Source: Marinobacter sp. MDS2
Lineage (GTDB): Bacteria; Pseudomonadota; Gammaproteobacteria; Pseudomonadales; Oleiphilaceae
DNA: 37,976 nucleotides
Direction: 5' to 3'
Assembly: GCF_030718085.1 (NCBI RefSeq)
Contig: NZ_JAVAJF010000006.1
Coordinates: 1-37,976, forward strand
Part shown: piece by piece, positions 1 through 25,594 of the stretch
Layout: each line of letters begins with the position of its first letter
Position numbering within the stretch: the stretch's first letter is position 1
Program-made: the position numbers and the translations under genes
Notes under the pieces: model-generated
Databases searched by the model: none
What the model was told of the DNA's origin: nothing
What the model saw: the letters and a program-made list of their open reading frames with translations, nothing else

Positions 1-3000
1 CGGCATCGTCTTCAGTGACTGCGGCATCAGCAGCGGTCACCGTTATGTTGGTCGCGTCATCCTTGCCCGTAATAGTGACGTTAACCACCTGAGTCGAACC
101 GTCAGCACTGGTCGCGGTGAAGCTGTCAGTCAGGGTTTGCCCTTCAGCCAGCGCTTGTACCGTCGCGTTGCTGTTATCCAGGCTGTACGTCCAATTGCCA
201 GCACTGTCGAGATCAACCGTGCCGTAGCCGTTGGTAGACGCTGAAGAAGACTGCGCCAAAAACACCGCTTCACCGCTCTCGGCATCGCTGATGGTCAGCG
301 CACCGCTGTCTGTCAGAGTACCGTCCTCACTGACGGCAGCCGAGGCATCACCACCAATCACTGCTGCATCGTTGGTGCCGGTAATGGTGATGTTTTGAGT
401 TTGGGTGCTGCCGTCATCACTGGTGAAAGTGATGGTGTCGGCCAGCGTCTCGCCAGCCGCCAACGCTTGCACCGAGGCGTTGCTATTATCGAGCGCGTAA
501 GTCCAGTTGCCGCTGCCATCTACGGTGACCGTGCCGTAAATCGCGGCGCTGCTGGCTAGCGTGCCTTGGCCAGTATCCGGATCGGTGACAGTCACCGTGC
601 CATTGGCGGTGTTGTTACTCGCATCATCCTCGGTCACCGCCGTGTCCGCGGCGGTTAGGTTGATAGTGGTTGCGTCATCCTTGCCCGTAATAGTGACGTT
701 AACCACCTGAGTCGAACCGTCAGCACTGGTCGCGGTGAAGCTGTCGGTCAGGGTTTGCCCTTCAGCCAGCGCTTGTACCGTCGCGTTGCTGTTATCTAGG
801 CTGTACGTCCAATTGCCAGCACTGTCGAGATCAACCGTGCCGTAACCGTTGGTAGAAGGTGCGGACGTCTGCGAGACAAACACCGCCTCATCGCTATCGG
901 CATCGCTGATAGTCAACGTACCGCTGTCGGACAGAATGCCGTCTTCACTGACAGCAGCCGTGGTATCACCGCCAATCACTGCTGCGTCGTTGGTACCCGT
1001 AATAGTGATTGTTTGGGTTTGCGTGGTGCCGTCATCACTGGTGAAAGTGATGGTGTCGGCCAGCGTCTCGCCAGCCGCCAACGCTTGCACCGAGGCGTTG
1101 CTATTATCGAGCGCGTAAGTCCAGTTGCCGCTGCCATCTACAGTGACCGTTCCGTAGTTTGCGGTGCTACTGGCTAGCGTGCCCTCACCCGTATCCGGAT
1201 CAGAAATGGTCACTGTGCCAGTGGCGGTATTGTTGCCGGCGTCGTCTTCGGTGACTGTTGAATCAGCAGCGGTCACCGTTATGTTGGTCGCGTCATCCTT
1301 GCCCGTAATAGTGACGTTAACCACCTGAGTCGAACCTTCAGCACTGGTCGCGGTGAAGTTGTCAGTCAGTGTTTGCCCTTCAGCCAGCGCTTGTACCGTC
1401 GCGTTGCTGTTATCCAGGTTGTACGTCCAGTTGCCAGCACTGTCGAGATCAACCGTGCCGTAACCATTGGCAGACGCTGCAGAAGACTGCGCCACAAACA
1501 CCGCTTCACCGCTATCGGCATCGCTGATCGTCAGCGCACCCGTGTCGGACACGATACCGTCTTCACTGACGGCAGCCGTGGTATCACCACCAATCACTGC
1601 CACATCGTTGGTACCCGTAATAGTGATGGTTTGGGTTTGCGTGGTGCCGTCATCACTGGTGAAGGTGATGGTGTCGGTCAACGTCTCGCCTGCTGCCAGG
1701 GCTTGTACCGCAGGGTCGCCGTTATTCAGCGCGTAGGTCCAGTTGCCGCTGCCATCTACAGTGACCGTTCCGTAGTTTGCGGTGCTACTGGCTAATGTGC
1801 CCTGGCCAGTATCCGGATCGCTGACAGTTACGGAACCGTTCGCAGTATTATTTCCGGCATCGTCTTCTGTGACTGCGGCATCAGCAGCGGTCACCGTTAT
1901 GTTGGTCGCGTCATCCTTGCCCGTAATAGTGACGTTAACCACCTGAGTCGAACCGTCAGCACTGGTCGCGGTGAAGTTGTCAGTCAGTGTTTGCCCTTCA
2001 GCCAGCGCTTGTACCGTCGCGTTGCTGTTATCCAGGTTGTACGTCCAGTTGCCAGCACTGTCGAGATCAACCGTGCCGTAACCATTGGCAGACGCTGCAG
2101 AAGACTGCGCCACAAACACCGCTTCACCGCTATCGGCATCGCTGATTGTCAACGCACCCGTGTCGGACACGATACCGTCTTCACTGACGGCGGCCGAGGC
2201 ATCACCACCAATTACTGCTGCGTCATTCGCTCCAGTGATGGTAATAGCCTGGGTTTGCGTGGTGCCGTCATCACTGGTGAAAGTGATGGTGTCGGCCAGC
2301 GTCTCGCCAGCCGCCAACGCTTGTACCGAGGCGTTGCTATTATCGAGCGCGTAAGTCCAGTTGCCGCTGCCATCTACAGTGACCGTTCCGTAGTTTGCGG
2401 TGCTACTGGCTAATGTGCCCTGGCCAGTATCCGGATCGCTGACAGTTACGGAACCGTTCGCAGTATTATTTCCGGCATCGTCTTCAGTGACTGCGGCATC
2501 AGCAGCGGTCACCGTTATGTTGGTCGCGTCATCCTTGCCCGTAATAGTGACGTTAACCACCTGAGTCGAACCGTCAGCACTTGTCGCGGTGAAGCTGTCA
2601 GTCAGGGTTTGCCCTTCAGCCAGCGCTTGTACCGTCGCATTGCTGTTATCCAGGTTGTAAGTCCAATTGCCAGCACTGTCGAGATCAACCGTGCCGTAAC
2701 CATTGGTAGACGCAGCGGAAGACTGCGCCAAAAACACCGCTTCACCGCTCTCGGCATCGCTGATAGTCAGCACTCCGCTGTCGGACAGAATGCCGTCTTC
2801 ACTGACAGCAGCCGTGGTATCACCGCCAATCACTGCTGCGTCATTCGCTCCAGTGATGGTAATAGCCTGGGTTTGCGTGGTGCCGTCATCACTGGTGAAA
2901 GTGATGGTGTCGGTCAACGTCTCGCCTGCTGCCAGGGCTTGTACCGCAGGGTCGCCGTTATTCAGCGCGTAGGTCCAGTTGCCGCTGCCATCCACGGTGA

Positions 3001-3165
3001 CCGTGCCGTACGTCGCAGTGCTGCTGGCCAAGGCGCCCTCACCCGTATCCGGATCGGAAATGGTCACGGTGCCAGTGGCCGTATTATTGCCGGCGTCGTC
3101 TTCGGTGACCGCCGTATCCGCGGCGGTCACGCTGATCGTGGCCGCATCGTTGACGCCGGTGTAAC
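1..3165 (-). repeat. Tandem 618-bp VCBS double repeats inside the giant gene
   Basis: About five copies of a 618-bp (206-codon) unit run head to tail, in frame, and continue past the left edge. Equivalent points recur near 231, 849, 1467, 2085 and 2703. Each unit encodes two different VCBS-type subdomains of about 101-105 residues. One starts with an NITVTAADAAVTEDDAG-like segment and ends ITGANDA. The other starts AVIGGD and ends ITGKDDAT. Copies are near identical at the DNA level, with differences in scattered blocks. For example, 1373-1546 and 1991-2164 match almost base for base while the next block differs, as expected from recombination or gene conversion between copies. Copy number may vary between strains and be mis-assembled from short reads. 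Confidence 0.93.
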
Positions 3166-6100
3166 TAATCGTCGCCGCCAGGATGTTGGAATCCAGCGCC
3201 CCGTCATTGACCGTGACGTCGAACGCCGGCATCACTTCGTTTCCATCGTCCACAAACTCCACCAGACCACTATTGAGTTGGGCACTGGTGAAGCTGGTGA
3301 TCGGTACGTTAGCGTTGTTGCTGAGCTGGAAATATCCGCCGTTGAGGCCGCTGATTGTGAAGGTAAATTCTGTGTCGTCAGGATCGGTGATACCAAAGTT
3401 CGCCGCAGACAAACCGACAGTCTGACCTTCGATCAGAGTTAAGGCCGCGCTGTCCAACACCGGCGCTTCATTTGTATCCGTTACCTGGATAGTGAATATC
3501 TCGTCGTAACTCAATCCACCGGCATCAGTGACTCTAACAGTAATGTTATGTGATGCCGCCGTCTCATAATCGATCAGGGAAGCATCCAGTACGGTGATAT
3601 CGCCGCTTACTGAATCAATGTCGAAACGGCCACCCGCGTTATCTACGAGTGTGTAGCTGAAGCTGTCACCACGGTCGGGATCTATCGTCGATAAAGTGCC
3701 GACGACAGTTCCATTGGGGGAGTTTTCCGGAGAGGAAAGGATTAATTCCGGATTGCTCGGCGTGAATCCAGTACCACTTGTGTGCTGCACGGTCAGGTTG
3801 TTACCACCGACGCTTTCCACAATCGTGCCACTAGTGGACAGGTTGTCGAATATCCAGTTCGCGACCATGCCCGGTTCATTACTGGGCAGCGTCTGAGTGT
3901 AGTTCGTCGCAACTTCAGTAGCTGTGCGCACATCATCGAAGAGCCGGATATCATAAAGCTCTCCGTTGAAATATTCTTGGGACTCAAAAGTGCCACCGAC
4001 ACTGTCCTGCTCGAGGCCGAACATCAGCGTCCCGCCAGTCGGGATCGTCTGGCCAGTCGATAAACCGGTATTACTGTCAATCAATGCGCCATCGATGTAT
4101 ACGCTCCAGTCTCCCGCGCTGTTGTCCCAGCTCACAGACAGGGTGTGGCGTTGCCCATCCATCAGGGTCGCGTTGTAATTAATGGCATTCGAAAAAGCGG
4201 CGGCGCCTGTTCCGATATCCAGCTCAAGCGTATTATCTGCCATTGTATTAATAGCTAGCACGTCGCCGCCTGACGCAGTGTTGTACGATATGAAAGGCAC
4301 CTCGTTGGAGAAGTTGTTGCCTTCGAATTGTACCTCCACAGTGAACTGGCTAAGTGGGCTTGGCAGTCCGTTGTCGGCAACGAGATACGAATCGTTACCG
4401 TCTTCATTGAGGCTGAGGCCGCTCTGCGAGGTCGATGTGGTTATCAGATCGGTCGGTGCGTCGTTGACGGGGGCAACGTTGACAGTGGCGACCGTAGTGC
4501 CCCCACCCAACCCCGCATCGCTGTTGGATGTAGAGGCCTGTATCGTAAAGGTTCCGCTGCCGTTAAAGTCGGCCGTCGGGGTAAATTTCAACCCGGCACT
4601 ACCTTCGGCAACAGTAATGAAATCGCCGTTAATTATTTGAGTGACGCCGTCGTTTTTATATAGCGTTCCATCAGTGATGCCAGTGACTTTGTAATGAGTC
4701 ACTTCGGAACCATCTGCAGGGTTTGGTGTAATCACCAGACCACTTGTCGATTGCGTGTCCTCAGTTGTGCTTGTATTGGTAACGGACGGAGTGTCGGCCA
4801 TAGCGTTGACAACCACACTCGCGCTCGCCGTCGTTGAGGAGAATGGAGAGCTCCCTCCCCCCAGCTCCGTATACTCAACCTGAACATTGTCGATAGACAG
4901 ATTGTTTATTCCGGCACCCGTCTCTCCACCACTTACATAAAAACGAACCAGCGTGTTTGACGAGAGATGAGAGCTGAGGTCAATCGTTTGGGTGCCAACA
5001 CCTTGGTTTATAGTCGAGTTAAATGTTGCCACCGTGTCGTAGGTGGTACCGCCATCGCTCGAAACCTGAGCGAGAAGCGTGGCTGAACCGCCCAGCGCGT
5101 TATCGTAAGAAAACGAGAGAGTCGCGCCGGTCGCATTTTCCAGATTAACTTCACGGGAAAGACTATTCCCTGCGCTGGCGACCTGGAATTTCAATTCATT
5201 ACCCGATACCCTGATACGGCCATCTGTGGGATCAGACCCAGCGCTGTTTGAATCGACTTCGGCCCAGTCAGTACTCCACGCGTTCGTACCATCATTGTTG
5301 CTATACGAGACACTGCTGAATTCGTCCAGTGTAAACCTGGTACCTTCATCGATCGCCATAGAGCTGCCATTAGCACCGCTTGTCTGATCCCAGGCACGGA
5401 AGGTAATGCCGTTCGTGACAGTACCGTTCCAGTCTGCATCGGGCACGAATCGCACGAGCGTGTTCACATCGCCAGCCAGCAAGCGCGCAGCCGCGGTACT
5501 TGGCGAACCAAACGCCGTCCAAATGCCACCGCCGTTGGTGGTGAACTCCCAAGTACCGTTGGTGTTATCGACTCCGACCACAGCAATACCGCCACTCGAT
5601 CCACTATCGGCATCGGACACCTGCCCAGCGATCAGGCCCGAGACAAGGGTGCCTGAATTGTTAACGTCGTCTTCGTTAATTGAATTAAGGTCATTAGCAC
5701 CGCTGAGTACCGGGGCATTGTTTCCGTTAGCGATCACAACATTCGCTGCAAACTCCGAGGTATCCCCATACGCAAGCTGGTCATCACTGCCCACTTGGCC
5801 GGCGTCGTCAACCTTGGTGGCGGTAGCAGTGACGTAATCACCCTCGTTCAATGTAATACCGGTCAGTATTACGTCATTAAAAGAGCCATCGCCGGTACCG
5901 TTGGTGGTTACAGTCGTGCTTCCCAGGAAGAAGCGACCTTCGCCATTGGTTGCGTCCTGAGTGCCTGCCGTGTTGCCGAAAAACTCAATACGGTATGAAG
6001 TGGTTGCCCCATTGGTGTCGAGAGTGCCGCTCAGGGTCAGGTTCGAGCCAGTAAGAAGGGCCGTGGTGATTGCAGGGTAGTTTTGAAGATTATTTGCACC

Positions 6101-8569
6101 GGTATCGCCGTCGTTAGCGTCGTTGCTGGTAACGCCAGTGGTCCCCAGGTCGATTCCCATGTCGCTGTTGGAATGAATCTGGTTGCCGAGCACCGTATTA
6201 CCACTGCCGTTTACAATGTTGACACCATCGAGCGCATTAAACGCAATCAAGTTACCTGCGCCGGTTTCCGTGCCGCCGATCAGGTTGCCAGTCGCATTAC
6301 CCTGAATCTCGATGCCGTCATCAGAACGATTACCGCGATCGAGAGTACCGGTGATATCGGTACCAATATAGTTTCCTTGCACCGTATTGTTATTGGAATT
6401 TATTTCAATTCCTTCGAAATTATTAGAAATGACATTGCGGGCTGAGGCGGTAGTGCCACCAATGGTTGTATTGTCCGCGCCAGACAGTACTGCTATCCCA
6501 ACATCTGTATTTCCCGACCCCGTCGAACCATCAGGGTCCAGTCCGATAATGTTGCCCTGAATAATCGTCCCTGTTGCACCGGAGCCGGTGATATTGATGC
6601 CTTCGTTATTGTTGTTAGTAATCACATTACCTTCGTTTGCGCCAGTGCCACCAATAACAGTGTTGGCGCCTTGTACATTGATACCACTGTTACTATTACC
6701 AACTCCGACTGCTGTTCCGGCTCCTGCTGTGCCGATCCAGTTTCCCGAAAGAGTAATGCCATCAGCACCCGAATCAATCTGAACACCATTCCCCGAAAAG
6801 TTGGTAATCATTAATCCGCGTAAAATACTGTGGTCTGAGGTGGCCGAAAATTTGAGGCCGTCCACAGTGCCTGTGGCAGAAATCCCATCGATCCGGATCA
6901 CCGGATTGCCGGAAAAATCTGGCTCGGAGGTGCCGTCAAGGATCAACGTATCAGTAATTGTCGGCAACGCACTGCCGAGCGTGATGGTGTGCGCACCATC
7001 GACCAGAGGATCAGTGATATTGAACCGAATGGTATCTGCGATAGCGCCATTGGGTGTGGCGTTCGCAGCTTCAATGGCCTCACGCAGTGATATCTTGCCA
7101 TCGGCACCTTTATTCAGGTGTAACGCTTCAATGGATGAGGTATCACCATCGGCTTCATCGCTGGTGGTATCAACCGTCAGAGGAACAGATTTTATCGACA
7201 ATGCAAAAGCAGTCCAATTATCGGCCCCTGCCCAACTCCAGGCCATATCCACAGAAGGCGCTCCCGCCTTAGTGCTGCCGCCGGCATTGATTTCGTACCC
7301 GTAAGCATCCCAATTGTTCTCTTGCCCTGCGCCGGCTCCGGCAATCAGGTTATAGTCGGTCGGGTCATCCACTGACACCCCACCGTAGACAAGTTCGCCA
7401 GCGGCGGAAGCAACCGTTATTGCGGCCGTACCGGAAATGCCCGAATTGAACTGACGTGCAGTGATAGGGTTCGCCTGATCGACGCCGGTAAAGGTGGTGA
7501 CACCAACTGCTGCACCGTCTGAGTTGCCGCTAAACGTTACGTCAACATTATTGGTCCCAACATCCGGCGCAACCAGCGTCCAGATTTCGATACGGCTGTC
7601 ACCGTTTTTCTCGGCGCCGACAAACGTAGCACTTTGACTGCCGTAGGTAATAGAATCTACTGAATCCGTGGCGAGCCTGTGGTTCAACGTAACGACGATT
7701 GTCATCAGCCGATCGGAACCGGAGGTGGTGTGCGATACGAGAATGTTCCCACCGGTGCTTACACCAGTAGAGGTCACATCAACGGCCGCGGCCAGCGTAT
7801 GATCCCAAGAATCTAGTGTTGCATCGCTGAAGAGAGCGCCGGTTTCAATCAGACCGGTTTTATATTCCAATTCCCAATCACCACCCATATCCCAATTGCC
7901 CGTCAGGTCATCCGATGCCGCAATGTCGGCGGCCGTTAAGGTGGCGATTTTATCGATCAGGGCCTGGCCATCGGTTGACGCTGCCAGCTCACAGCCATAG
8001 AACAAAATATCGGCGTCGGCATTCAGGTGTTCACCCCAGGATTGCAGCTGGGCTTGGTAGGTAACTAGGTTCTGGTTATTGAGCTGGGTATTACCAAGAT
8101 CAACCACGCCATCCTCGCCATGCGAGATCAGGTGAATGGCATCAATTCCATGGTAGTCTGGCAAGGCTGCTGTGATCTGCTCAATGCCATCACTGTTATT
8201 GTCGAGCAGGATCACTTCAAAACAACGGCTGTTGTCGCTGTTGGATAACAGGTCATCAACAAGTTGCTGGTAATCCGGGGTATCGGTATCGACAAATACC
8301 AGTTCAAGACGGGGCGAGGCTTCTTCCAGAGGCGAGGTTACATCACCCTCTGAGGACAACGGTTCTGCAAGCGCGGCATCGGTTTGTTCTTTGTACAGCT
8401 GAGCGGTCTGTTTTTCCAGAACGGCGGCGGTGTCATCCAGCAGAGAGGCCAGAGGATCGTCTGCAGCGGGGTTATCAACCGCTCCGCCAAACATATCTGC
8501 GGAGAACATCATCCGGGGCTCTAGAGCTTCGATGACTGGCGCCGTACGTTTTTTGTCTTTCCTGTTCAT
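1..8569 (-). CDS. Giant LEPR/DUF4347/VCBS-repeat surface protein (5' part; C-terminus beyond window)
   Basis: Open from ATG 8569 to the window edge, about 2,856 residues, with the end missing. GGAG lies about 11 nt upstream of the ATG. There is no ordinary signal peptide. Residues 13-25 read IEALEPRMMFSAD, the LEPR-type N-terminal motif of giant proteins. Domains in order: DUF4347 at about 88-250, with His150 in ISHG and Cys193 in YGCELA; a beta-rich domain at about 262-463; a SLREAI motif near 492 lacking the usual preceding Cys; a right-handed beta-helix of GN/IG-rich turns at about 570-820; a jelly-roll-like domain at about 1077-1234; a LamG-like domain at about 1385-1575; a cadherin domain at about 1600-1700; a CSPG-like domain at about 1700-1800; then VCBS repeats to the edge. 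Probably an exported adhesin or biofilm protein (inference). It lies 44 bp after an HlyD-type adaptor gene, so the upstream genes probably export it. Confidence 0.9.
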   Translation of the reverse strand, partial: MNRKDKKRTAPVIEALEPRMMFSADMFGGAVDNPAADDPLASLLDDTAAVLEKQTAQLYKEQTDAALAEPLSSEGDVTSPLEEASPRLELVFVDTDTPDYQQLVDDLLSNSDNSRCFEVILLDNNSDGIEQITAALPDYHGIDAIHLISHGEDGVVDLGNTQLNNQNLVTYQAQLQSWGEHLNADADILFYGCELAASTDGQALIDKIATLTAADIAASDDLTGNWDMGGDWELEYKTGLIETGALFSDATLDSWDHTLAAAVDVTSTGVSTGGNILVSHTTSGSDRLMTIVVTLNHRLATDSVDSITYGSQSATFVGAEKNGDSRIEIWTLVAPDVGTNNVDVTFSGNSDGAAVGVTTFTGVDQANPITARQFNSGISGTAAITVASAAGELVYGGVSVDDPTDYNLIAGAGAGQENNWDAYGYEINAGGSTKAGAPSVDMAWSWAGADNWTAFALSIKSVPLTVDTTSDEADGDTSSIEALHLNKGADGKISLREAIEAANATPNGAIADTIRFNITDPLVDGAHTITLGSALPTITDTLILDGTSEPDFSGNPVIRIDGISATGTVDGLKFSATSDHSILRGLMITNFSGNGVQIDSGADGITLSGNWIGTAGAGTAVGVGNSNSGINVQGANTVIGGTGANEGNVITNNNNEGINITGSGATGTIIQGNIIGLDPDGSTGSGNTDVGIAVLSGADNTTIGGTTASARNVISNNFEGIEINSNNNTVQGNYIGTDITGTLDRGNRSDDGIEIQGNATGNLIGGTETGAGNLIAFNALDGVNIVNGSGNTVLGNQIHSNSDMGIDLGTTGVTSNDANDGDTGANNLQNYPAITTALLTGSNLTLSGTLDTNGATTSYRIEFFGNTAGTQDATNGEGRFFLGSTTVTTNGTGDGSFNDVILTGITLNEGDYVTATATKVDDAGQVGSDDQLAYGDTSEFAANVVIANGNNAPVLSGANDLNSINEDDVNNSGTLVSGLIAGQVSDADSGSSGGIAVVGVDNTNGTWEFTTNGGGIWTAFGSPSTAAARLLAGDVNTLVRFVPDADWNGTVTNGITFRAWDQTSGANGSSMAIDEGTRFTLDEFSSVSYSNNDGTNAWSTDWAEVDSNSAGSDPTDGRIRVSGNELKFQVASAGNSLSREVNLENATGATLSFSYDNALGGSATLLAQVSSDGGTTYDTVATFNSTINQGVGTQTIDLSSHLSSNTLVRFYVSGGETGAGINNLSIDNVQVEYTELGGGSSPFSSTTASASVVVNAMADTPSVTNTSTTEDTQSTSGLVITPNPADGSEVTHYKVTGITDGTLYKNDGVTQIINGDFITVAEGSAGLKFTPTADFNGSGTFTIQASTSNSDAGLGGGTTVATVNVAPVNDAPTDLITTSTSQSGLSLNEDGNDSYLVADNGLPSPLSQFTVEVQFEGNNFSNEVPFISYNTASGGDVLAINTMADNTLELDIGTGAAAFSNAINYNATLMDGQRHTLSVSWDNSAGDWSVYIDGALIDSNTGLSTGQTIPTGGTLMFGLEQDSVGGTFESQEYFNGELYDIRLFDDVRTATEVATNYTQTLPSNEPGMVANWIFDNLSTSGTIVESVGGNNLTVQHTSGTGFTPSNPELILSSPENSPNGTVVGTLSTIDPDRGDSFSYTLVDNAGGRFDIDSVSGDITVLDASLIDYETAASHNITVRVTDAGGLSYDEIFTIQVTDTNEAPVLDSAALTLIEGQTVGLSAANFGITDPDDTEFTFTISGLNGGYFQLSNNANVPITSFTSAQLNSGLVEFVDDGNEVMPAFDVTVNDGALDSNILAATISYTGVNDAATISVTAADTAVTEDDAGNNTATGTVTISDPDTGEGALASSTATYGTVTVDGSGNWTYALNNGDPAVQALAAGETLTDTITFTSDDGTTQTQAITITGANDAAVIGGDTTAAVSEDGILSDSGVLTISDAESGEAVFLAQSSAASTNGYGTVDLDSAGNWTYNLDNSNATVQALAEGQTLTDSFTATSADGSTQVVNVTITGKDDATNITVTAADAAVTEDDAGNNTANGSVTVSDPDTGQGTLASSTANYGTVTVDGSGNWTYALDNSNASVQALAAGETLADTITFTSDDGTTQTQAITITGANDAAVIGGDASAAVSEDGIVSDTGALTISDADSGEAVFVAQSSAASANGYGTVDLDSAGNWTYNLDNSNATVQALAEGQTLTDNFTATSADGSTQVVNVTITGKDDATNITVTAADAAVTEDDAGNNTANGSVTVSDPDTGQGTLASSTANYGTVTVDGSGNWTYALNNGDPAVQALAAGETLTDTITFTSDDGTTQTQTITITGTNDVAVIGGDTTAAVSEDGIVSDTGALTISDADSGEAVFVAQSSAASANGYGTVDLDSAGNWTYNLDNSNATVQALAEGQTLTDNFTATSAEGSTQVVNVTITGKDDATNITVTAADSTVTEDDAGNNTATGTVTISDPDTGEGTLASSTANYGTVTVDGSGNWTYALDNSNASVQALAAGETLADTITFTSDDGTTQTQTITITGTNDAAVIGGDTTAAVSEDGILSDSGTLTISDADSDEAVFVSQTSAPSTNGYGTVDLDSAGNWTYSLDNSNATVQALAEGQTLTDSFTATSADGSTQVVNVTITGKDDATTINLTAADTAVTEDDASNNTANGTVTVTDPDTGQGTLASSAAIYGTVTVDGSGNWTYALDNSNASVQALAAGETLADTITFTSDDGSTQTQNITITGTNDAAVIGGDASAAVSEDGTLTDSGALTISDAESGEAVFLAQSSSASTNGYGTVDLDSAGNWTYSLDNSNATVQALAEGQTLTDSFTATSADGSTQVVNVTITGKDDATNITVTAADAAVTEDDA

Positions 8570-8613
8570 CACGCGCCTAACTCCATTTCAGATATCGCTT
8601 CGTCAGAGTTTCC

Positions 8614-10035
8614 CTAACGCCGAGCCAATTCAGGGTAACAAGCCATTGGCTTTAAGGTGGGCGCCGTAGATAGGGTGGCGGCGATTTGTTCGATCTGGTC
8701 GGGGCTATCAAGCTCACTCGTTAAGGCGACATCCAGCCAGTATTGTTCTATGTCTTTTCTATGAGGCAGAATCTCAGTAACAAACCCTTTTTGGGCAAGC
8801 GATTCCTGGCGTTTGTTTGCAAAATAAGGCTTTCGAAAATAACCTAAAGCTATGCGGCCCTTACTTTCGCCCTGGGCCAAAACGAAGCGATCCGTAATAC
8901 CTGCTTCATCAAGGCGAGCGAGTAGCTGCTTCTTTTCTACAGAGTTAAAGGGCTCTGCGGCCAACACGCGGTAGCCCACTTCTACACTTTCACTAACAGC
9001 ACGCAGCAGCAGACTTTCACTTTGTTGCTGAAGCTTATCAGCCAGTTGCTCGGCCGTGCTTTTGTCTTCAACAGGGCCAACGCTATAACAGCGCCCCAGT
9101 GGTGCTTCGTCGGCTGTTTCCATGGCAGTTGCAGCATCCGACTGCACCGCAACTGTTTGGGGTTTCTGCTGCGTCTGCGGCAAGAAAGTTAACTGACACC
9201 GCAGACCTGCAGGAATCGTGTAATCAGGGTTTGGAAGGCTTAAACGAACGCCGTATGTTCCGCTGGCTGCATCGGCAACACGGTCCACACGCTCAACGGT
9301 AGCCCGGTACTCGCCCGAATTTGCTAACCCCGTGCGCACATCCGCCTGCATACCCGGAACGATGCTCCCCAAGTAGTCCACCGGCACAATCACTTCCACA
9401 TGAAGAGGGTTGAGCTGAGCAACGCGTGCCACGGGTTCGTCTTCAACAAACTCCCCCACCGATTTGAAGCGTTCCATGACCACACCATCGACAGGGCTGC
9501 GGATGCGGCGCTGTTCTAGAACCAGCTGCGCCCGGCGATATTCAAGCTCGTAAATCGCTTTATTATCCTGTTCTTGTTTCACCTGTAATTCGGCAATGCG
9601 GGCTTCAGTTTTCGTTTTGTCCCAGTCATGCTGAGATATCGCAGATTTGCGTAGAAGTGCCTGCTCTCGATTTTGAGTAAGCGTGCCGAAGCGAGCGCTC
9701 TCCTCTCGTAGTTCTATCGCTGTATTTTGATTTGCCCGGGCTCTGGCCAATTCCAGGGACGCTTGCTCAACACTTGATTCAAGCTCGACGATAACCGCGC
9801 CTTTCTTTATCAGGTCGCTCCGATACACGTGAATAGCGTCAACCACCCCGGGGACAACACTGCCAACATCAACGATTTCGCTAGGCTCCATGACACAATC
9901 CTGCACGGGGATTTTGACATCCATTTCTCCCATCAAGTGCTCTTCTGATTGGGCATGACCAACAAACAAAACCATGAGTATCAGCGTCAATGACGTCCGT
10001 GTTTTCATTCTCATAGATATACTCTTAAGCAACAT
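8614..10035 (-). CDS. Periplasmic HlyD/RND-type adaptor with C-terminal SPOR-like domain
   Basis: 473 residues. An N-terminal signal peptide (KTRTSLTLILMVLFVGHAQS) indicates export to the periplasm. Residues of about 50-215 form the barrel-sandwich and coiled-coil hairpin of membrane-fusion proteins: VVPGVVDAIHV, a charged helix pair, then RIRSPVDGVVMERF. A beta-barrel segment follows (LHVEVIVPVDYLGSIVPGMQ). Residues of about 310-430 look SPOR-like, with two half-repeats (CYSVGPVEDKSTAEQLADKL; GRIALGYFRKPYFANKRQE). SPOR domains bind denuded septal peptidoglycan, so this may position the adaptor in the wall (inference). The annotated ATG lies beside a small hairpin. Met8 (10014) or Met10 gives a cleaner signal peptide and is an equally good start. 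The gene lies between the M50 fusion gene and the giant gene, so it probably serves export of the giant protein. Confidence 0.85.
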   Translation of the reverse strand: MLLKSISMRMKTRTSLTLILMVLFVGHAQSEEHLMGEMDVKIPVQDCVMEPSEIVDVGSVVPGVVDAIHVYRSDLIKKGAVIVELESSVEQASLELARARANQNTAIELREESARFGTLTQNREQALLRKSAISQHDWDKTKTEARIAELQVKQEQDNKAIYELEYRRAQLVLEQRRIRSPVDGVVMERFKSVGEFVEDEPVARVAQLNPLHVEVIVPVDYLGSIVPGMQADVRTGLANSGEYRATVERVDRVADAASGTYGVRLSLPNPDYTIPAGLRCQLTFLPQTQQKPQTVAVQSDAATAMETADEAPLGRCYSVGPVEDKSTAEQLADKLQQQSESLLLRAVSESVEVGYRVLAAEPFNSVEKKQLLARLDEAGITDRFVLAQGESKGRIALGYFRKPYFANKRQESLAQKGFVTEILPHRKDIEQYWLDVALTSELDSPDQIEQIAATLSTAPTLKPMACYPELARR

Positions 10036-10130: not shown

Positions 10131-12293
10131 TCAAAATGAAAGACGACTTAAAAAAAGCTGCCGACCACTTCGCAGCCATTGGCTCGCTAACGGCTCAGCG
10201 CCATGGTCGAAGCGCACATAAGCACGCTCGCCTACGCCCGCCAAATCCAAACTCACTGGCAATGACAAATCCACATGAAAGACTTCTTCAACCGCCGTGG
10301 TTCCACCGGTATCGCTCATTTTCACTGCGATACTTCCACCGCCGGCCGTTCCCAACGCTCGGCTGGGCAAAACGGAATTGCCCGCCGGTGTCTGACGGCT
10401 AATCTGTGCGGGAACTGTTTCACCCAGCCGTTCAGCCAAACGAACTTCAACCTTTGCCACTTGTTGGCGAACCAAACCTATTTTCGATTGCGGTACTACT
10501 GCCCTCACAATCAGACTTTCCGGGCTAATCACGTACCCGATCAATTCACCTTTGCCCCGGTAGCGCCCCACGAAGCGGCTTACATCGGGCAACACAAATA
10601 CACCTGGCACTTTGCTGCGAACAACCAGCGAGGCTTTCTGTGCTTTTAACAAAGCCAACTCAGCCTCAACCGATTGCAGCTCGGCATTGGCCATTTCAGA
10701 TTGCACTCGTCGTTTCATACGTTCGGCGGCGCTGCGAATTTCCAATTCTCTGCGGCGCGCTTCAAGCTTAGAAATTTGTGCATCCAACGTCACGGCACGC
10801 ATTCGTATAAGGGGCGTTTCAGCTTCCACCAAAGTACCGGGCTTCACCAGCACCTCTTCCACAAACCCTTCGGCACCGCTGTACAGCACTGCCTGTTCCT
10901 TCACCCAGACCACGCCCTCGGTATGGCTGGTTAGAGAAACGGGCACCCACAATAAACCGGAGCTTACCGCACCAATCGTCAAGACGATCACTGTCACCGC
11001 CCGAGCGCGCCGGCCAGCCAGTTTTTGCCCTTCGAGTAAAAATCGAATGCCTCGATAAAGAGGCAACAAAAGCTGCATTCCGACAGCCCACACCCCCAGC
11101 GCCACTCCAATAAAGAGATATTCTTCCGCCAGAAACAGTACGATCACGAACAAAATGAACAGTCGGTACAGAAGTGCGGCCAAACCATAAACAGCGAACC
11201 ATATCGTTTCACCCTCAGCCGTCGCCGGTGACCGTGCGGAGTGAATCCCAAACAAATAACGCTGTATCAGATAGAGGTAATAACGACTGGCACGGGTGTA
11301 CAGATTGGGGATCTCGGCCAGATCCTGCAGGACGTAGTAGCCATCGAAACGCAGCAGCGGATTGGCGTTAAACAGGAAGGTCGATACCGTACCGATCAAC
11401 AGAGCATTGAACGCCAGATCACGCACCAGGCCCGGCTCGACCGCCAGCCAGACAAACAACGCCATGGCAGCGATGAACAGCTCCACCAGAACCCCCACTG
11501 CTCCGACTAACGCCCGCTTATACTTATCGGGCATCTCCCAGGCTGCGGAGGCATCCACATAGGGCACGGGGGCAAGCACCAGGAGTGTAACTCCCATTTC
11601 ATGGACTTCCCCACCCCACATCTTGACTGTGAAGGCGTGCGCGAACTCGTGAACAACCTTGATGACAACAAACGTCATCAGCATCAGAACAAGGTTCGTG
11701 GGCAAGAGGACATCCGCGTTAACAGAAGCGCTGATTTCCGGAATGTTCACCAACCCCAGCAGGCCGGCCAATCCCACCACCAGTAGCCAAACGGCCGCCC
11801 CCATGGGAGAAAATGCGGGGCGCACCCAAGGCAAGAAGCGATTGAGTATGGCGTCTGGGTCCAGCAACGGGATCCGTATTGCCAATGGGTTCATGACCGC
11901 GCGCTGCTTGCGGATACGGCGCTCATTCTGAAAACGGCTAAAAAACTCTTTCGCGTCGCTGGGCAACTCACTTCGCAGCAGATCCATTGCGAATAGCTGA
12001 GTCAGAATCAGCACGATATCGTCTTGGCTTGGCGCATCCTCGCCGAGAGTTGCGTGCGTTTTGCTGAAGATTTCTTCAACACTGTGTTCGCCATCGAGGC
12101 GGCCAATAAATTCGTAGGCTGAGGCATTGAACCGGAGGTGGCGTCCACTGACCTGATCTCGAAGGAGATACCAACGTTCGCCGCGGTACTGTCGAGGATA
12201 GGTTCGCACGTGCTTACGCAGCCTGGGGCAAAGCGAGGCAAGCAAAGGCCAATTGGGGTTTTGAGATGCAGCGGTCATATTTTCTGCTACCAT
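10131..12293 (-). CDS. PqqD-like domain / M50 zinc metalloprotease / HlyD-type fusion membrane protein
   Basis: About 720 residues. Positions below count from a GTG at 12311, the longest reading. Residues of about 44-115 resemble the PqqD winged-helix fold, the RiPP recognition element that binds leader peptides (LRFNASAYEFIGRLDGEHSV). Several membrane helices follow. The S2P/M50 zinc site is intact: HEFAH at 221-225 and NPLLRFDGYY with Asp323. From about 460 the chain becomes a barrel-sandwich and coiled-coil adaptor (GFVEEVLVKPGTLVEAETPL). It may bind, cut or hand over an exported substrate, plausibly the giant protein's LEPR leader (inference). Starts: GTG 12311, ATG 12293 (overlapping the upstream TAG, chosen here) or ATG 12278. 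None has a strong Shine-Dalgarno, so translational coupling is likely. Confidence 0.85.
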   Translation of the reverse strand: MVAENMTAASQNPNWPLLASLCPRLRKHVRTYPRQYRGERWYLLRDQVSGRHLRFNASAYEFIGRLDGEHSVEEIFSKTHATLGEDAPSQDDIVLILTQLFAMDLLRSELPSDAKEFFSRFQNERRIRKQRAVMNPLAIRIPLLDPDAILNRFLPWVRPAFSPMGAAVWLLVVGLAGLLGLVNIPEISASVNADVLLPTNLVLMLMTFVVIKVVHEFAHAFTVKMWGGEVHEMGVTLLVLAPVPYVDASAAWEMPDKYKRALVGAVGVLVELFIAAMALFVWLAVEPGLVRDLAFNALLIGTVSTFLFNANPLLRFDGYYVLQDLAEIPNLYTRASRYYLYLIQRYLFGIHSARSPATAEGETIWFAVYGLAALLYRLFILFVIVLFLAEEYLFIGVALGVWAVGMQLLLPLYRGIRFLLEGQKLAGRRARAVTVIVLTIGAVSSGLLWVPVSLTSHTEGVVWVKEQAVLYSGAEGFVEEVLVKPGTLVEAETPLIRMRAVTLDAQISKLEARRRELEIRSAAERMKRRVQSEMANAELQSVEAELALLKAQKASLVVRSKVPGVFVLPDVSRFVGRYRGKGELIGYVISPESLIVRAVVPQSKIGLVRQQVAKVEVRLAERLGETVPAQISRQTPAGNSVLPSRALGTAGGGSIAVKMSDTGGTTAVEEVFHVDLSLPVSLDLAGVGERAYVRFDHGAEPLASQWLRSGRQLFLSRLSF

Positions 12294-14203
12294 CCCGCGG
12301 CCCAGGCCCACAGGCGAATACGATCAACAATGGAATGAGTCCAAATCCAGAGCAAACTTTGTTGCCCCATATCGACCTTGGCCACCCCTCTCATGCCAGG
12401 GCGCAGTGATGACGCGGGCTCATCCAGCGAAGCTTCAACCCGGAAATAGTTTCGGGTGTCTTTGGAAACCGCCACGGGAACCACTTGGTCAATTACAAAA
12501 TCGAAGGTCGTCCTTGGAAATGCAGCTATGAGCAGATGACCCGCCTTACCTTTTTCCAGACCCGCCGCGTCTTTTTCATCCACCTCCAAGACCACTCGAT
12601 AGCTTTCCAGTGGCGCAATTTCGTACAGCACCTGACCGGTCTCTACCGGAGCCCCCAAAGACTGGCTGAGATCACCACTTACCACCACGCCATCAAAGGG
12701 CGCATACAGCTCAGTGCGTTTTAGCTGTTCTTCAACCAGCCTGATTTCGGCACTGACCTGATCCAGCTGTGCTCGCAGCACACTGAGCTCAACTCTTTCA
12801 CGCTTCGCCAGTGCATCCTGATACTCGGCTTGAATTTTATTGTACTCGCTCTGCCATTTCTGGCGTTCAAGCTGCAGGTTTCTGTCATCCAACACTGCGA
12901 TCCTTTGCCCCGCTTCAACCAAGTCTCCTGCCCTGACGTCTGCCTGTTTGACATAGCCGTTTTGCGGTGCCGCCAACACCTGACGAACGGCACCTTCGAT
13001 ACTGGCCGCTGAAGTCATCTCATAGGTCCCATCTACAACGGCGAGTACCGCCAATAGCAGCAAACCCGACAACAAACCCACCTTCAACTTCATATAAGCC
13101 GGGCCGAACACTCCGGCGGCAAGCTCTCTTAACGCTTCGATACCTTTAGACCAAGACGAGCGCTCTTCTCGTTGCTTCAACTCCAACGCCGGGCCCACTA
13201 AGTTTGCCAAGGCTTGGCACACAGCTATCGTTTCTTTATTGAAGGGCTCACTCCCCCTTCGCTCCAGGGTAACCGCACCGATGATGTTTGAACCGCCCCG
13301 CAACGGGATAGTGCATACGGCCATGCCCTGCTGCTCTTCCGCCAATTCGGCATGAGCTCGAGAGACCGCGGATTCCCGTTGTTTAATCGAGGGATAAACC
13401 ATGGTGATTCTTTGGTCCACCGCCTCTTCCATAGCGGCTTCAATCTTTCGCACAAGCTGTGTACGGGGATCAAAGCTCGCCATGTGGGAAATCGCTTGAA
13501 GGCGGATGGGCAAGCCACATCGAAACCCAATATTGACTCGTTCACACCCGAAGTGATCCGCCAGCTGATTAGCCGTTTCCATGGCTGCAGCATGGGATGA
13601 GGAGTGTCCGAGAATGGCGGTCATGGCTGCTAAAGAAAAAGCGCCGGTTTCCTGATCAGCCGCGAGTTGCTGCTGAAGCAAGGTTTCCATCCACAACCCG
13701 CCCCACTGCAGCAACTGCAACACAGCGCGCTGTTGCGCCTCGGAGCGAGGCGAGATCATAACGGCAACAACGGCCACCGGCTTCTGGTCCACCAGCAATG
13801 GGCAGGCGATCAACTCGCAAGCACGCTGCTTCTCAGGGCCATAACGCTGGTGCGAGCGAACGATACCTCTGTTTTTCAGAAGTGCGTGGTTAGCAGTTTC
13901 AATCAGGAGTGAATCGCCCTCACCGACGTCCGGCCAGATTGAGAGCGCTTGCCATTGGCGCTGGGCATCCGCTGGCAGATAAAGCGCCCCACGAATAATC
14001 CCGGTGATCATGCGGCACTGCCACGCTAACCATCGTTGCGCCATGGCGGCCGATAACGGGGGTGAATTCGTCGAGTTTAAGGCAGTATCCGAGCGAGTGT
14101 CTCTCGCTCGTTTTATGACGGCACCTTCAACTGGCCCAACAACATGACCATCAGATGGAGCATCTGATCCGAAGGGTGGTGGTACCAGCGAACTGTTTGA
14201 CAT
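12287..14203 (-). CDS. GAF-GAF-HlyD inner-membrane adaptor
   Basis: 638 residues, first gene of the secretion locus. The first ~50 residues are Pro/Ser-rich. Residues of about 60-180 and 185-350 look like two GAF sensory modules (LLIETANHALLKNRGIV; CTIPLRGGSNIIGAVTLERR). One transmembrane helix follows at about 375-392. Then comes a periplasmic HlyD unit: NGYVKQADVRAGDLVEAGQ, a coiled coil at about 445-500, and LYAPFDGVVVSGDLSQSLG. HlyD proteins bridge an inner-membrane pump and an outer-membrane channel. Cytoplasmic GAF domains would let a small ligand or redox state gate export (inference). GAGAG lies 7 nt before the ATG. The stop overlaps possible starts of the next gene. No ABC ATPase or TolC-type gene is adjacent, so the energy source is unknown or encoded elsewhere. 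Confidence 0.85.
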   Translation of the reverse strand: MSNSSLVPPPFGSDAPSDGHVVGPVEGAVIKRARDTRSDTALNSTNSPPLSAAMAQRWLAWQCRMITGIIRGALYLPADAQRQWQALSIWPDVGEGDSLLIETANHALLKNRGIVRSHQRYGPEKQRACELIACPLLVDQKPVAVVAVMISPRSEAQQRAVLQLLQWGGLWMETLLQQQLAADQETGAFSLAAMTAILGHSSSHAAAMETANQLADHFGCERVNIGFRCGLPIRLQAISHMASFDPRTQLVRKIEAAMEEAVDQRITMVYPSIKQRESAVSRAHAELAEEQQGMAVCTIPLRGGSNIIGAVTLERRGSEPFNKETIAVCQALANLVGPALELKQREERSSWSKGIEALRELAAGVFGPAYMKLKVGLLSGLLLLAVLAVVDGTYEMTSAASIEGAVRQVLAAPQNGYVKQADVRAGDLVEAGQRIAVLDDRNLQLERQKWQSEYNKIQAEYQDALAKRERVELSVLRAQLDQVSAEIRLVEEQLKRTELYAPFDGVVVSGDLSQSLGAPVETGQVLYEIAPLESYRVVLEVDEKDAAGLEKGKAGHLLIAAFPRTTFDFVIDQVVPVAVSKDTRNYFRVEASLDEPASSLRPGMRGVAKVDMGQQSLLWIWTHSIVDRIRLWAWAAGW

Positions 14204-14319: not shown

Positions 14320-16803
14320 TTAAGGGCAAATCGCCGGTGAACCGACCACTTCGACCACCCCGCTCACACCTTCCCAGGCACCACCCGGCTGTGCCACCCC
14401 CTTGGTTCTCAGACGATAAGTACCGGGCTCCAGATTACGTGGCAAGTGCCAGTTCACCGACGCTTCCGATGCGCCGGTATAAGGCAGCTCCATAGTGAAC
14501 GCGGGCAAGAACCGCGGGTGCCAGGTATACAACAGGTTGGGCGAACGATCTGTCGCTACGACTTGCCAATTGCCATCCTCATTGAGTCGTTCCGCATAGG
14601 CATAACTGTCGTTCAGCATCAGATCGTTACGAGGGTGACTGGCCTGAAACCGAGCGGAGATCTCATCCCCCTGCACGGCTATCGCAGGCACATCCTCCAG
14701 CACCGTTCCGAACGCTTGTTCACCGGGGCTGTCGCTTGGAATATACGGCAGCCTGCGCAGCACAGGCTTCACCTTAGGCAGTTCTGGCCCAACGGGTAAA
14801 ACCGTACCCTGCACCATCGAATCCGCTAACTTACGGAGCTCCTGGGTCACGGCGGCGAGGCTCCAGGGGCCAAACGCGTTTGAAGCGCCCTCATACTGCT
14901 GGCTGGCGTACTCCTCTCGAGTGGTCAGATAATGGATATACCCATTCACAAGCCCGGCAATGACCACTGTATCAACGCCCACCGGTGCCAGCTCTTCCTG
15001 AATCATGTCCCGTAAACGCCGGGCCGACATGGTTGTGACTTCCCATGGCAAACCTACCAAGGCCAGATTGCCAAGCTGGAAGATCTGCAACGGATGTATC
15101 GCCGGCTCAAAGTTTGACGTTAACCCGAGCAACCCCGTTACCTTATTCGGCAACCCACCGGCAATTTCCCCTAGATTGGTGGGGAGCAAGATAGGCTTTT
15201 CCGCATGGCATCCCAACCCTAACACCGTTAAATGCTGCACATTGCACAACAACAGGTCACTGACCAACTTCAGCGGCATAGCCATCTCGGTCAGCCCTGC
15301 GAAGTCCGCAGCGGCACTGCGCAGGAGATCGGGCGAGGCGCTACAGGTCAGACCTTCCTGACTGATGGGCCCCGGGCCATCTTCTGCACCCGCCGGGAAC
15401 GACACGCCAAGGGCTGCATTACAGGTTTGCTTTTCAGGTGTATCCAGCTCTGGCGGATGCTCAAGCCGAGAAAGAACGTTCGGGTCTGTAACGGTGACCT
15501 TGTTCATCTGCACGTGCATCAACCGATAATCCACCCCACCCGATAACGGCTGGCCGTCCTGCCAAAGTTCAAGCGCACGAGCCAGTTGTTTGGTGCCGGA
15601 AATGGCATTCGAATCCATCGGGGCTTCCCCGCCTCCGCGGCGAGGGTCCGGATGCGGAAATTTGTTAATAAAGATATTCGGGGAAGCATCGCCCTCATCC
15701 GCTTGAGCAAACGCCGCCACGAAGCTGTCTTTGCCCGGTTCAGCCCGATACTCCGTGGCCATGATCTGCTCGAAGCCAAGCGATGCAAACCCTTTCACAT
15801 CCGAGCTCACGTAGGGCACTTCTGGCCCCATAACCGTTGGGTGCACACCAAACCAGTTAATCACACCCACCGGGCTACCACTCTTGCGGCGAAGATTCAG
15901 TTGCACCATGGTTTTGGCCACATCCACTTCTTCGCCCCGGATATTCAGGTACTGCCGGCGTTCTTGTTCAGGGTTCATCGCATAAGCGGGGCGCGAGCGG
16001 TTGATGTTGGTGTTCAACAACTCCCCTACGGCCATTTCGATCGGAGCGGTATGCTCGTTGGCTTCGATATTCCGATGTGCGCGAGCGATGGCATCAACAA
16101 TGCCATTGACGTTGGTTTTGTAGACCAGCGAATCAAATCCCAAATGCAGCGCGTTGCCGGCTTCGTGGTGTGCATAGCCAGCAGGCCCATTATGGGTATG
16201 AGTTGCCGACAACATGAGGTTGTCAGCGGTATATTCGGCCGCCAGCTCAGGATCTTTTGCCAATGCGGCCAGAACACCATTACGGACGGAGCCCCACATC
16301 AAACCAATATCGGCCGACACAAACATCACCCGCTTGTCGTTGCAGGGCGATTCTATGGCGAACGCCCGCGCATACTGTCGCTGGTGAAGGCCGTGCATCA
16401 CCTGCCCGGAGTCTTCCCAGCCCGCGCCACTTTTCAGGGCGACGGGGCCGGTAATATCTGACAACCCACTACCAAACCGGAATTCCCGGTTAGCGGCGCA
16501 CGATCCCACACCCTCCTGCGCTACAGCCTGAACACGCTTCGCAGCAGGCTTTGCCATCGAAGGCGCATCCATGCCTTTGCCGACCTCTCGCAGCGGGCTT
16601 TCCATCACACACTGGGCCAGTTCAGGATTGGCAAAAGCCGCCACGTTTGGCTCAACGTCAACGGACGGACCGGGCTCATTGGGCGCCGGTGATTGGGAAA
16701 CAACATCGGAGCTGCCTTGATCGCCGCCACAGGCCAGCAATAAAGCACTGGCAAACGCCAGTCCAAAATGACGAGACACCAAACCTACTTTGTTATTTTT
16801 CAT
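14320..16803 (-). CDS. Neutral/alkaline ceramidase, lipoprotein
   Basis: 827 residues. Neutral ceramidases cleave ceramide to sphingosine and a fatty acid using zinc. A lipoprotein signal ends LLLAC with Cys25, so it is envelope-anchored. A ~80-residue low-complexity linker precedes the catalytic domain, which begins GSGLSDITGP (about 111-120). THTHNGPAG (201-209) and GVHP (His321) supply likely zinc ligands. NRSRPAYAMNPEQER (about 268-282) and EGDASPN (about 370-376), holding the likely active-site Ser374, are family hallmarks. The C-terminal ~150 residues form the usual beta-sandwich. It is longer than the ~670-residue Pseudomonas enzyme, mainly through the N-terminal linker. It lies 36 bp behind the beta-propeller lipoprotein gene, so the two are probably co-transcribed. 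It may attack host or environmental sphingolipids, or native ones if the organism makes them. Confidence 0.92.
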   Translation of the reverse strand: MKNNKVGLVSRHFGLAFASALLLACGGDQGSSDVVSQSPAPNEPGPSVDVEPNVAAFANPELAQCVMESPLREVGKGMDAPSMAKPAAKRVQAVAQEGVGSCAANREFRFGSGLSDITGPVALKSGAGWEDSGQVMHGLHQRQYARAFAIESPCNDKRVMFVSADIGLMWGSVRNGVLAALAKDPELAAEYTADNLMLSATHTHNGPAGYAHHEAGNALHLGFDSLVYKTNVNGIVDAIARAHRNIEANEHTAPIEMAVGELLNTNINRSRPAYAMNPEQERRQYLNIRGEEVDVAKTMVQLNLRRKSGSPVGVINWFGVHPTVMGPEVPYVSSDVKGFASLGFEQIMATEYRAEPGKDSFVAAFAQADEGDASPNIFINKFPHPDPRRGGGEAPMDSNAISGTKQLARALELWQDGQPLSGGVDYRLMHVQMNKVTVTDPNVLSRLEHPPELDTPEKQTCNAALGVSFPAGAEDGPGPISQEGLTCSASPDLLRSAAADFAGLTEMAMPLKLVSDLLLCNVQHLTVLGLGCHAEKPILLPTNLGEIAGGLPNKVTGLLGLTSNFEPAIHPLQIFQLGNLALVGLPWEVTTMSARRLRDMIQEELAPVGVDTVVIAGLVNGYIHYLTTREEYASQQYEGASNAFGPWSLAAVTQELRKLADSMVQGTVLPVGPELPKVKPVLRRLPYIPSDSPGEQAFGTVLEDVPAIAVQGDEISARFQASHPRNDLMLNDSYAYAERLNEDGNWQVVATDRSPNLLYTWHPRFLPAFTMELPYTGASEASVNWHLPRNLEPGTYRLRTKGVAQPGGAWEGVSGVVEVVGSPAICP

Positions 16804-20962: not shown

Positions 20963-21670
20963 TTAGCTTCGGAATAATCTTGAATATTGGGTTTCATGCT
21001 GAGCACTGCCCAGAGCCAGGCCGGGTAGAATCGGGCCCAATCTCTCGTCGGGTAGTACCAGGGCGGTTTCAACCGCGGCGACGAGCTGCGGGCGCAACTG
21101 CTCGTTCAGGCGCTGCGCGGCGGTGTGCCCCAGAGGCATGGCCTTACAGGCCACTGCCAGCTGGTTCTCCAACCAGCCCCAGGCAAAACCCAGCAGGGCT
21201 TGACGCACCGGCACCTGTCGCTGATGTGCAACCCAGGCAAACACGGTGACGTAACCCGGCTCTTCCGGCAGTTGGGCATCGCCCTGCTCTGCCTTGGGTT
21301 GCAACTCCAGACTCGTCAGCAGGCGCTTCAGCGCCAACCCCAAGCGGATGTCTTCGTCGCTGAGTTCGGCGGTTTCACGATTGGCGTGCAGCCAATCGTT
21401 CCAGAACGCGAGCCCTTTGCTGTCACCGTTGGCCCAGCAGTTCTGCAACCGAGCCAGCACCGGCAATTCACAGCGGCTCAAGCCATCGTCGAGAACACCT
21501 TCCAGCCACTCCCCCAGCTCGCGCTCGTTGCTGACCCAACCCAACTCAAAGGCACTTTCAAGGCCCTGTGACCAAGCAAAGGCGCCAATGGGCAACGCAG
21601 GGCTGATCAACTGCATCAAACCCAACAGCGCCAGATCGCTGACCCCGGCGCTCTGGCTGTCAGTGCGCAT
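20963..21670 (-). CDS. ureF: Urease accessory protein UreF
   Basis: 235 residues. All-helical UreF joins UreD and UreG and acts as gatekeeper of GTP hydrolysis during nickel loading. The family start region [22 protein letters not shown] is clear near residue 20. The conserved C-terminal region includes [11 protein letters not shown] 21670 overlaps the end of ureE by 11 nt and gives the usual length. In-frame starts further upstream would translate the out-of-frame His-rich tail of ureE. No strong Shine-Dalgarno is seen, so coupling to ureE translation is likely. Confidence 0.93.
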
Positions 21671-22172
21671 GACTATGACCGTCGCTATGGCCGTGTTCAT
21701 GGCCATGGCTGTGCGCATGTTCACGCCCGGCGTGCGCATAGGCACCCGATTCAGGGTCAAACGGTGCTTCGTGATGGCTGAGACTAGCCCCCAATAATTC
21801 GGCCAGTTCCTCCAACACATGATCAGGAGGGAAACGCACCCAGTGCCGGCCATCATCGTCGGAGCCAATGGCCAACGACACGTGGCGGTTTCCCAAGTGG
21901 TAGCACAGCCGTGCCAAAGGCAGGCCGCTACCAATGTAAGCGGTCGTTACCGGCTCATTGGCAGCACAAATGCGAATCGCCTCGCCCGTTCGGGCTTGTA
22001 GCAGGTCGCCATGACGTAGCACCGGACCGCGATCCAGAAACAGGCCGACATCGCGGCCGCTATCGGTCACCGCTTTCAGGCGACCGCGAATTCGCAGCTC
22101 GTAAGGCAAAGTCAGCGTGTCCATTGCGTTTACGTCAGAGCTGCGGTCCATTCTCTTAATCAATTCAAGCAT
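21660..22172 (-). CDS. ureE: Urease accessory nickel metallochaperone UreE
   Basis: 170 residues from ATG 22172, chosen because AAGGA sits 6 nt upstream. A GTG at 22193 directly abuts the ureC stop but lacks a site. The N-terminal domain (about 15-75) has the UreE beta fold (LKAVTDSGRDVGLFLDRG). The C-terminal domain contains LGNRHVSLAI with the dimer-interface nickel-binding His. The protein ends in a very His-rich tail ([18 protein letters not shown]), a nickel store like that of Klebsiella UreE. It delivers nickel to UreG. Confidence 0.96.
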   Translation of the reverse strand: MLELIKRMDRSSDVNAMDTLTLPYELRIRGRLKAVTDSGRDVGLFLDRGPVLRHGDLLQARTGEAIRICAANEPVTTAYIGSGLPLARLCYHLGNRHVSLAIGSDDDGRHWVRFPPDHVLEELAELLGASLSHHEAPFDPESGAYAHAGREHAHSHGHEHGHSDGHSHAH

Positions 22173-22193
22173 GTACTTTTCCTTCCAAGCCAC

Positions 22194-24235: not shown

Positions 24236-24246
24236 GACGAGCCTCC

Positions 24247-24549: not shown

Positions 24550-24649
24550 CGCTAACTCCATCGTCATCGATGTTTTGTTTTAAAACCTGTGCGTGTAAGC
24601 AACACAGGCGGTGGGTCGTCGCCAAAGTCAGCGCTTTGGCGAAAAATTG

Positions 24650-25558: not shown

Positions 25559-25594
25559 GCGATCGTGTACCTTTGTAATAGCCCAGCGCAGCAT

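Follow-up and report, generated by a model that had tools for sequence, protein, structure and literature searches.

A PqqD-M50-HlyD fusion protein as a candidate component in the export of giant proteins bearing a LEPR-type tag at the N-terminus

What is the role of a single polypeptide that joins a PqqD-like domain, an M50 protease and an HlyD arm, encoded beside a giant gene with an N-terminal LEPR motif? The locus lies at a contig end of Marinobacter sp. MDS2, in a stretch of 37,976 nucleotides that we refer to as the window, and homologue comparison places its nearest named relatives in Marinobacter. On the minus strand the order of transcription runs from a ceramidase gene through a GAF-HlyD gene, the fusion and an HlyD gene to the giant LEPR gene. 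The fusion (10131..12311, minus strand) is one open frame of 726 codons from a GTG at 12311; its closest homologues have 715 residues as against these 726, which fits a start at the ATG at 12278. Domain scans identified its upstream neighbour as a 638-residue GAF and HlyD protein (12287..14203, minus strand) and its downstream neighbour as an HlyD/RND-type periplasmic adaptor of 473 residues with a sub-threshold SPOR match (8614..10035, minus strand). Two genes downstream of the fusion is the giant gene, which encodes a LEPR-XLL, DUF4347 and VCBS-cadherin protein (2..8572, minus strand); 2857 residues are seen before the contig end cuts it, with the 3' part lying beyond. A genome-wide profile search (3.45 Mb) found one fusion and one LEPR-XLL match, adjoining each other. 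There was no ABC ATPase of the type I secretion (T1SS) kind among 24 Pfam-scanned window ORFs and no TolC gene in the operon, and genome-wide no T1SS ATPase exceeded the cut-off of the LssB model, the one model searched (HlyB and PrtD models lay outside the search). A neutral/alkaline ceramidase-like gene (14320-16803, minus strand) lies just upstream of the operon with a beta-propeller-like gene further up, and a urease cluster (ureF, ureE, ureC, ureD) occupies 20963-25594 with HupE/UreJ near.

The amino-terminal region of the fusion (residues 29-112; 11976..12227, minus strand) is PqqD/RRE-like. It matches PDB entry 3g2b in a profile comparison (E 1.1e-5) and is predicted to form three strands followed by three helices, the arrangement of PqqD. 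In a fold search with the whole model the HlyD arm fills the list of matches, so the search speaks neither for nor against a PqqD fold, and because it did not reach this domain the assignment rests on the profile comparison. An M50 (site-2-protease-like) membrane domain was located by domain match and predicted structure at residues ~150-430 (11022..11864, minus strand), and residues 29-424 match the daptide metalloprotease model NF041824 with an E value of 2.3e-50, below its cut-off (171.8 vs 300 bits). In an alignment of the fusions, His221, Glu222 and His225 of the HEFAH motif (residues 221-225; 11637..11651, minus strand) are kept in 155/155 proteins with a letter there, and Asp323 of NPLLRFDG (residues 317-324; 11340..11363, minus strand) is kept in 154/154, in a loop modelled with low confidence. 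The HExxH and the downstream N-P-x-x-x-x-D within the membrane domain are the features of a site-2-type enzyme, which makes the fusion a putative protease. The remainder forms a HlyD/MacA-like periplasmic adaptor arm by fold and domain match (residues 457-710; 10182..10943, minus strand). A sequence-only reading had proposed the three-part polypeptide and an intact S2P zinc site with its Asp; domain matches, the 3g2b profile and the model agree with the former and the invariant residues with the latter, while the modelling check left the PqqD assignment standing.

At its amino-terminus the giant carries the tag LEPRMMFSAD (residues 17-26 as translated; 8495..8524, minus strand), within a match to NF012209 (LEPR-XLL) at 8471-8536 that scores 30.3 bits in the genome search and 22.2 bits in the model scan, where the cut-off is 17. 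Planctomycetes proteins carry a similar LEdR-type motif. Tagged N-termini are mostly without a strong hydrophobic stretch: the median best hydrophobicity is 1.39 (n=68, 62 different), and the highest, 2.28, overlaps the range of three secreted-looking controls (2.19-2.57). The largest tagged giant open frames reach 14,112 residues. Five complete tagged giants related to that of MDS2 gave no match to the T1SS C-terminal target model, and one tagged giant, L098, scores 292 bits with the model for BapA/Bap/LapF large adhesins, a family of type I substrates, where 180 bits is the cut-off. Behind the tag of the MDS2 giant lies a DUF4347 domain (residues 91-260; 7793..8302, minus strand), which is modelled with a caspase/CHAT-like fold and keeps a conserved His and Cys in model comparison; among solved structures the closest is a chain from the T6SS Hcp3-Tce1 complex. 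In the literature DUF4347 appears in a T6SS effector study and in a proteome table, and LEPR-XLL is mentioned in passing. Three complete tagged giants (L088:14357-18070, L100:11340-15299 and L288:6536-12064) share a carboxy-terminal pattern of hydrophobic stretch, DPLP/DPLA motif and charged tail, possibly a membrane anchor. In one genome (G053:C1:429854-484400) a single GAF-HlyD/fusion operon is preceded by two tandem LEPR giants, with frames of 13,848 and 3,186 residues.

We surveyed 369 gammaproteobacterial genomes, taking NF012209 at E≤0.001 as LEPR and a fusion match of at least 360 bits as close; this line was drawn after the scores were seen, and 23 further genomes of the 55 matched more weakly. 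At most three candidates per genome were scored in the fusion, SecA-like and LssB profile searches. LEPR occurs in 29 genomes and the close fusion in 32: both are present in 25, LEPR only in 4, the close fusion only in 7 and neither in 333. The close fusion is thus found in 25/29 LEPR genomes vs 7/340 others (Fisher p 1.8e-28; p 1.7e-27 when the MDS2 genome itself is left out), and by family in 19 of 22 LEPR families, with 24 fusion families among 182 (p 2e-18). Two of the LEPR-only genomes (G224, G319) have more distant fusions, and in the other two (G076, G213) none appears at E≤1e-20. A tagged giant is in fact present in six of the seven genomes that have the close fusion only. Two (G265, G094) have LExR tags missed by the LEPR profile search; in three the giant in the same stretch starts with a variant tag (AMEPRVLFS in G360, SVEPRLLFS in G264, SQERRILFSAD in G258); and the contig of G179 is identical to locus L179, whose genome has an over-cut-off LEPR match at E 0.004. 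No tag was seen in the seventh, G008. Fusion and LEPR share a contig in 13 of the 25 genomes, always on the same strand and in 12 within ~4.3 kb. When genomes were reached from 50 named fusion loci (47 genomes, as L151 was left out and two genomes have two loci each), 35 of the 47 had LEPR-XLL at E≤0.01. In 148 genomes of Desulfobacterota, the phylum of G412 (locus L180), the association is weak: LEPR occurs in 5, the fusion (E≤1e-20) in 10 and both in 3 (3/5, p 0.002; 2/4, p 0.02 without the seed genome). As a control that type I export would be expected to pass, an LssB ATPase over cut-off occurs in 8/29 LEPR genomes vs 53/340 others (p 0.08), so there is no clear link of the type I ATPase with LEPR proteins.

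The neighbourhood of the fusion is conserved as a recurrent set of GAF-HlyD, fusion, HlyD and tagged giant, joined in some loci by OEP/TolC and DUF3467 genes. Counts cover loci where at least 2.2 kb flanks the fusion on either side (84 close of 109, 14 distant of 28), some of which share genomes with other counted loci, and tags are under-counted there because the giants run beyond the DNA stretch examined. A GAF-HlyD relative lies within 3 kb in 82/84 close-fusion loci and 11/14 distant ones, making it the constant upstream partner, and a further HlyD relative within 6 kb in 68/84 and 10/14. Using a profile built from 8 seeds, an OEP/TolC gene was found within 8 kb in 10/84 close and 9/14 distant loci, and all nine outer-membrane candidates scanned match the OEP family. 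The small DUF3467 gene lies within 4 kb in 20/84 close loci (for example L133, L134, L292, L299 and L300) and in 0/14 distant ones; as a SecB-like chaperone it was rejected, the profile comparison giving a probability of 0.1%. ABC-like frames, recognised by two sequence motifs, occur within 8 kb in 11/168 fusion loci; one stands directly behind the fusion in just two loci with distant fusions, L218 and L223, and these are ABC-F-like by letters alone. In 6 of 80 named loci the fusion is overlapped by an opposite-strand frame, and all frames were kept in later labelling. Plasmid operons repeat the set. That of Thalassospira marina is annotated with a LEPR-XLL giant, DUF3467, HlyD, fusion, adaptor and TolC. 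In Methylosinus the order is giant, DUF3467, adaptor, fusion ('PqqD family protein'), 'prepilin peptidase', adaptor and TolC, where the 'prepilin peptidase' matches the SecA-like profile at 857 bits, and in Alisedimentitalea it is giant ('calcium-binding protein'), HlyD, 'peptidase M50' and 'SecA'.

This SecA-like gene is found no more than 3 kb from the fusion in 44/84 close loci and 1/14 distant ones. It encodes a paralogue of ~660 residues; two scanned members have the SecA_DEAD, preprotein cross-linking and P-loop domains, and the Walker residues (G-x-G-K, D-E) are kept in 16/16 aligned members. The best match of the profile in the PDB is 3jv2, which we take to be Bacillus subtilis SecA (E 3e-200), covering only residues 14-609 of 783, and SecA_SW gave no match in three scanned members. 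The missing part is presumably the helical wing and two-helix finger of SecA. A match of at least 749 bits occurs in 22/369 genomes, all with a close fusion (22/32 vs 0/337, p 5e-28); the line uses the gap from 749 to 644 bits and was chosen after the scores were seen. Below 644 bits the matches listed are mostly SecA-length frames, with one cut frame of 414 residues in G343, itself one of the 22. In G366, outside the 22 counted, a cut SecA-like frame adjoins the fusion, and in G081, G310 and G354 the paralogue lies away from it. MDS2 has one full-length SecA and no SecA-like paralogue, and in the 36-row clade of its fusion all 28 loci that extend at least 2.2 kb downstream (27 plus the MDS2 window) lack the gene there. 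The motor in this lineage would therefore be the housekeeping SecA or something unrecognised. No SecY-type gene was recognised among the recurrent clusters listed. Beside a distant-type fusion, L216:7598-9313 encodes a divergent SecA-like ATPase of 571 residues, perhaps an old or independent recruitment.

The form of the tag differs between the two kinds of fusion. After LExRxx(L/M/F/Y) the next residue is S or A in 30/30 rows (29 different loci) with close fusions, here at least 417 bits, and D in 9/11 with distant ones (at most 301 bits), the others having S (L100) and A (L278). Tags were collected with a regular expression that demanded LExR and accepted S, D, N or A in the position following the hydrophobic residues, so the invariance of LExR in these counts and in alignment A6 reflects selection; among others, the tags of L063, L077 and L094 escaped it, and the counts leave out L123 and L231 as false matches and treat L070 and L162 as one locus. 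On a quick tree of the fusions, which has long branches, the 8 placeable D-type rows lie on one side of one branch (97% SH-aLRT), apart from all S/A-type and SecA-bearing rows counted. One genome, G303, has both kinds: a close fusion and an LLLSAD giant lie on separate contigs, and a distant fusion has an LMFDAA protein next to it. That tag form tracks fusion clade fits recognition of each tag by its own fusion, as far as sequence comparison goes, and co-inheritance of operon genes alone would give the same pattern.

Taken with the PqqD domain, the invariant M50 site, three adaptors, OEP genes, the SecA-like ATPase and the tagged giants, these observations are most simply read in terms of dedicated export. 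We consider it more likely than not that giants with an N-terminal xExRxx(L/F)(S/D) tag have an export system of their own, with the fusion as its core component in the inner membrane. In such a system the cytosolic PqqD-like domain would bind the tag and a motor, which in many lineages may be the short SecA-family ATPase, would drive the chain N-terminus first. The M50 site would remove the tag at the membrane, and the HlyD arms of the fusion, the GAF-HlyD protein and the third adaptor could together build a duct through the periplasm that leads to an outer-membrane protein of the TolC type. Counted against this reading are the MDS2 clade without a SecA-like gene, its operon without TolC, the presence of an OEP gene near the fusion in only 10/84 close loci, the adhesin-model match of L098, the LEPR genomes G076 and G213 without a fusion, G008 with a fusion and no tag, the weak replication in Desulfobacterota, and the ABC-F-like gene behind the fusion in L218 and L223. 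The sequence-only reading had likewise pictured leader-reading export, with a LEPR motif two genes downstream of the fusion and no visible ABC ATPase. That reading is supported in part: its domains, its LEPR link (the association across genomes) and its operon without an ABC ATPase (Pfam scan of window ORFs) hold, and the genome survey that it called for did not find the fusion widespread without LEPR proteins. Missing from that picture were the SecA-like ATPase and the OEP/TolC genes, as well as the constant GAF-HlyD partner and the giant's caspase-like domain near its N-terminus.

Other explanations have to be weighed, and each is weakened by a test. Export of the giant may depend on a classical type I system encoded at another place in the genome, with the M50-HlyD cluster as an accessory module for retention, release or regulation. 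As in the LssB/LapB giant-adhesin branch of type I secretion, the loci have HlyD-type adaptors and in part OEP/TolC genes, and the candidate cargo consists of giant VCBS/cadherin adhesin-like proteins, L098 over the BapA/Bap/LapF model among them; GAF domains, and a GGDEF-type gene in 13/80 named loci, suggest regulation. One published LEPR giant has C-terminal RTX and serralysin domains (PMC10868602). Unlike in type I secretion, the fusion loci lack a recurrent ABC exporter, the giant is tagged at the N-terminus, the M50 protease is fused to an adaptor and many lineages have a SecA-like ATPase. Although 8/29 LEPR genomes have an LssB ATPase, 21/29, like MDS2, have none over cut-off (p 0.08; HlyB and PrtD models outside the search), and the T1SS C-terminal target model is unmatched in the five complete giants, so we regard type I export as unlikely.

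It is also conceivable that the housekeeping SecA/SecYEG machinery moves a giant with an atypical N-terminus, the role of the fusion being limited to trimming the tag or passing the chain on to the outer membrane. This would suit MDS2, with its one full-length SecA, and the view that a SecA paralogue was added in many lineages; the N-termini of a few tagged proteins match the controls in hydrophobicity (best 2.28). We consider it improbable, since the median is 1.39 against 2.19-2.57 on this hydrophobicity measure and the paralogue departs from SecA: it shares the SecA_DEAD, preprotein cross-linking and P-loop domains with SecA and accessory SecA2, yet its match ends near residue 609 of 3jv2, SecA_SW is absent in the three members scanned, and the candidate substrates mostly show no evident signal peptide by hydrophobicity. 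The fusion could instead be a RiPP-type maturation or export enzyme, as for daptides and epipeptides, with the giants nearby incidental. Its PqqD match and its likeness over ~395 residues to the PqqD-like and M50 parts of the daptide (NF041824) and YydH/LiaK (NF058609) metalloproteases are in keeping with this, but it falls under the curated cut-offs (172/300 and 28/225 bits), bears an HlyD arm and has a giant protein as partner rather than a small peptide. Given the very strong association with tagged giants, and since the product lists of four plasmid regions name neither a RiPP precursor nor a modifying enzyme, we hold this to be highly improbable.

Returning to dedicated export, we raise more tentatively, at slightly less than even chances, the possibility that it constitutes a new type of secretion system, with an HlyD/TolC duct, a PqqD-M50-HlyD tag reader and cutter, a cut-down SecA motor in place of an ABC ATPase, and giants as cargo. 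If so, one system present in several phyla would combine an efflux-type conduit with a motor of the SecA family, a reader of the RiPP kind and a protease of the site-2 type. The MDS2 giant is like LEPR-XLL (NF012209, LEPR-8K) in scoring over that model's cut-off; the model names the tag only, and the tie to the fusion and the SecA-like gene comes from this analysis. We found no paper linking these parts and no description of an export route for LEPR-XLL giants in the open-access literature, the scope of our search (subscription journals and preprints lay outside it).

The GGDEF-type gene follows the adaptor in L114-L117, L119-L121, L123, L126, L162, L163, L169 and L174, and a homologue in L070 has a PAS-GGDEF-EAL arrangement, hinting at cyclic-di-GMP control of the system. 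The records in which relatives of the fusion occur, many being metagenome bins, carry the labels Pseudomonadota, Thermodesulfobacteriota, Myxococcota, Campylobacterota and Omnitrophota. Plasmid records matching the fusion number 72, counting Escherichia (17) and Citrobacter (8).
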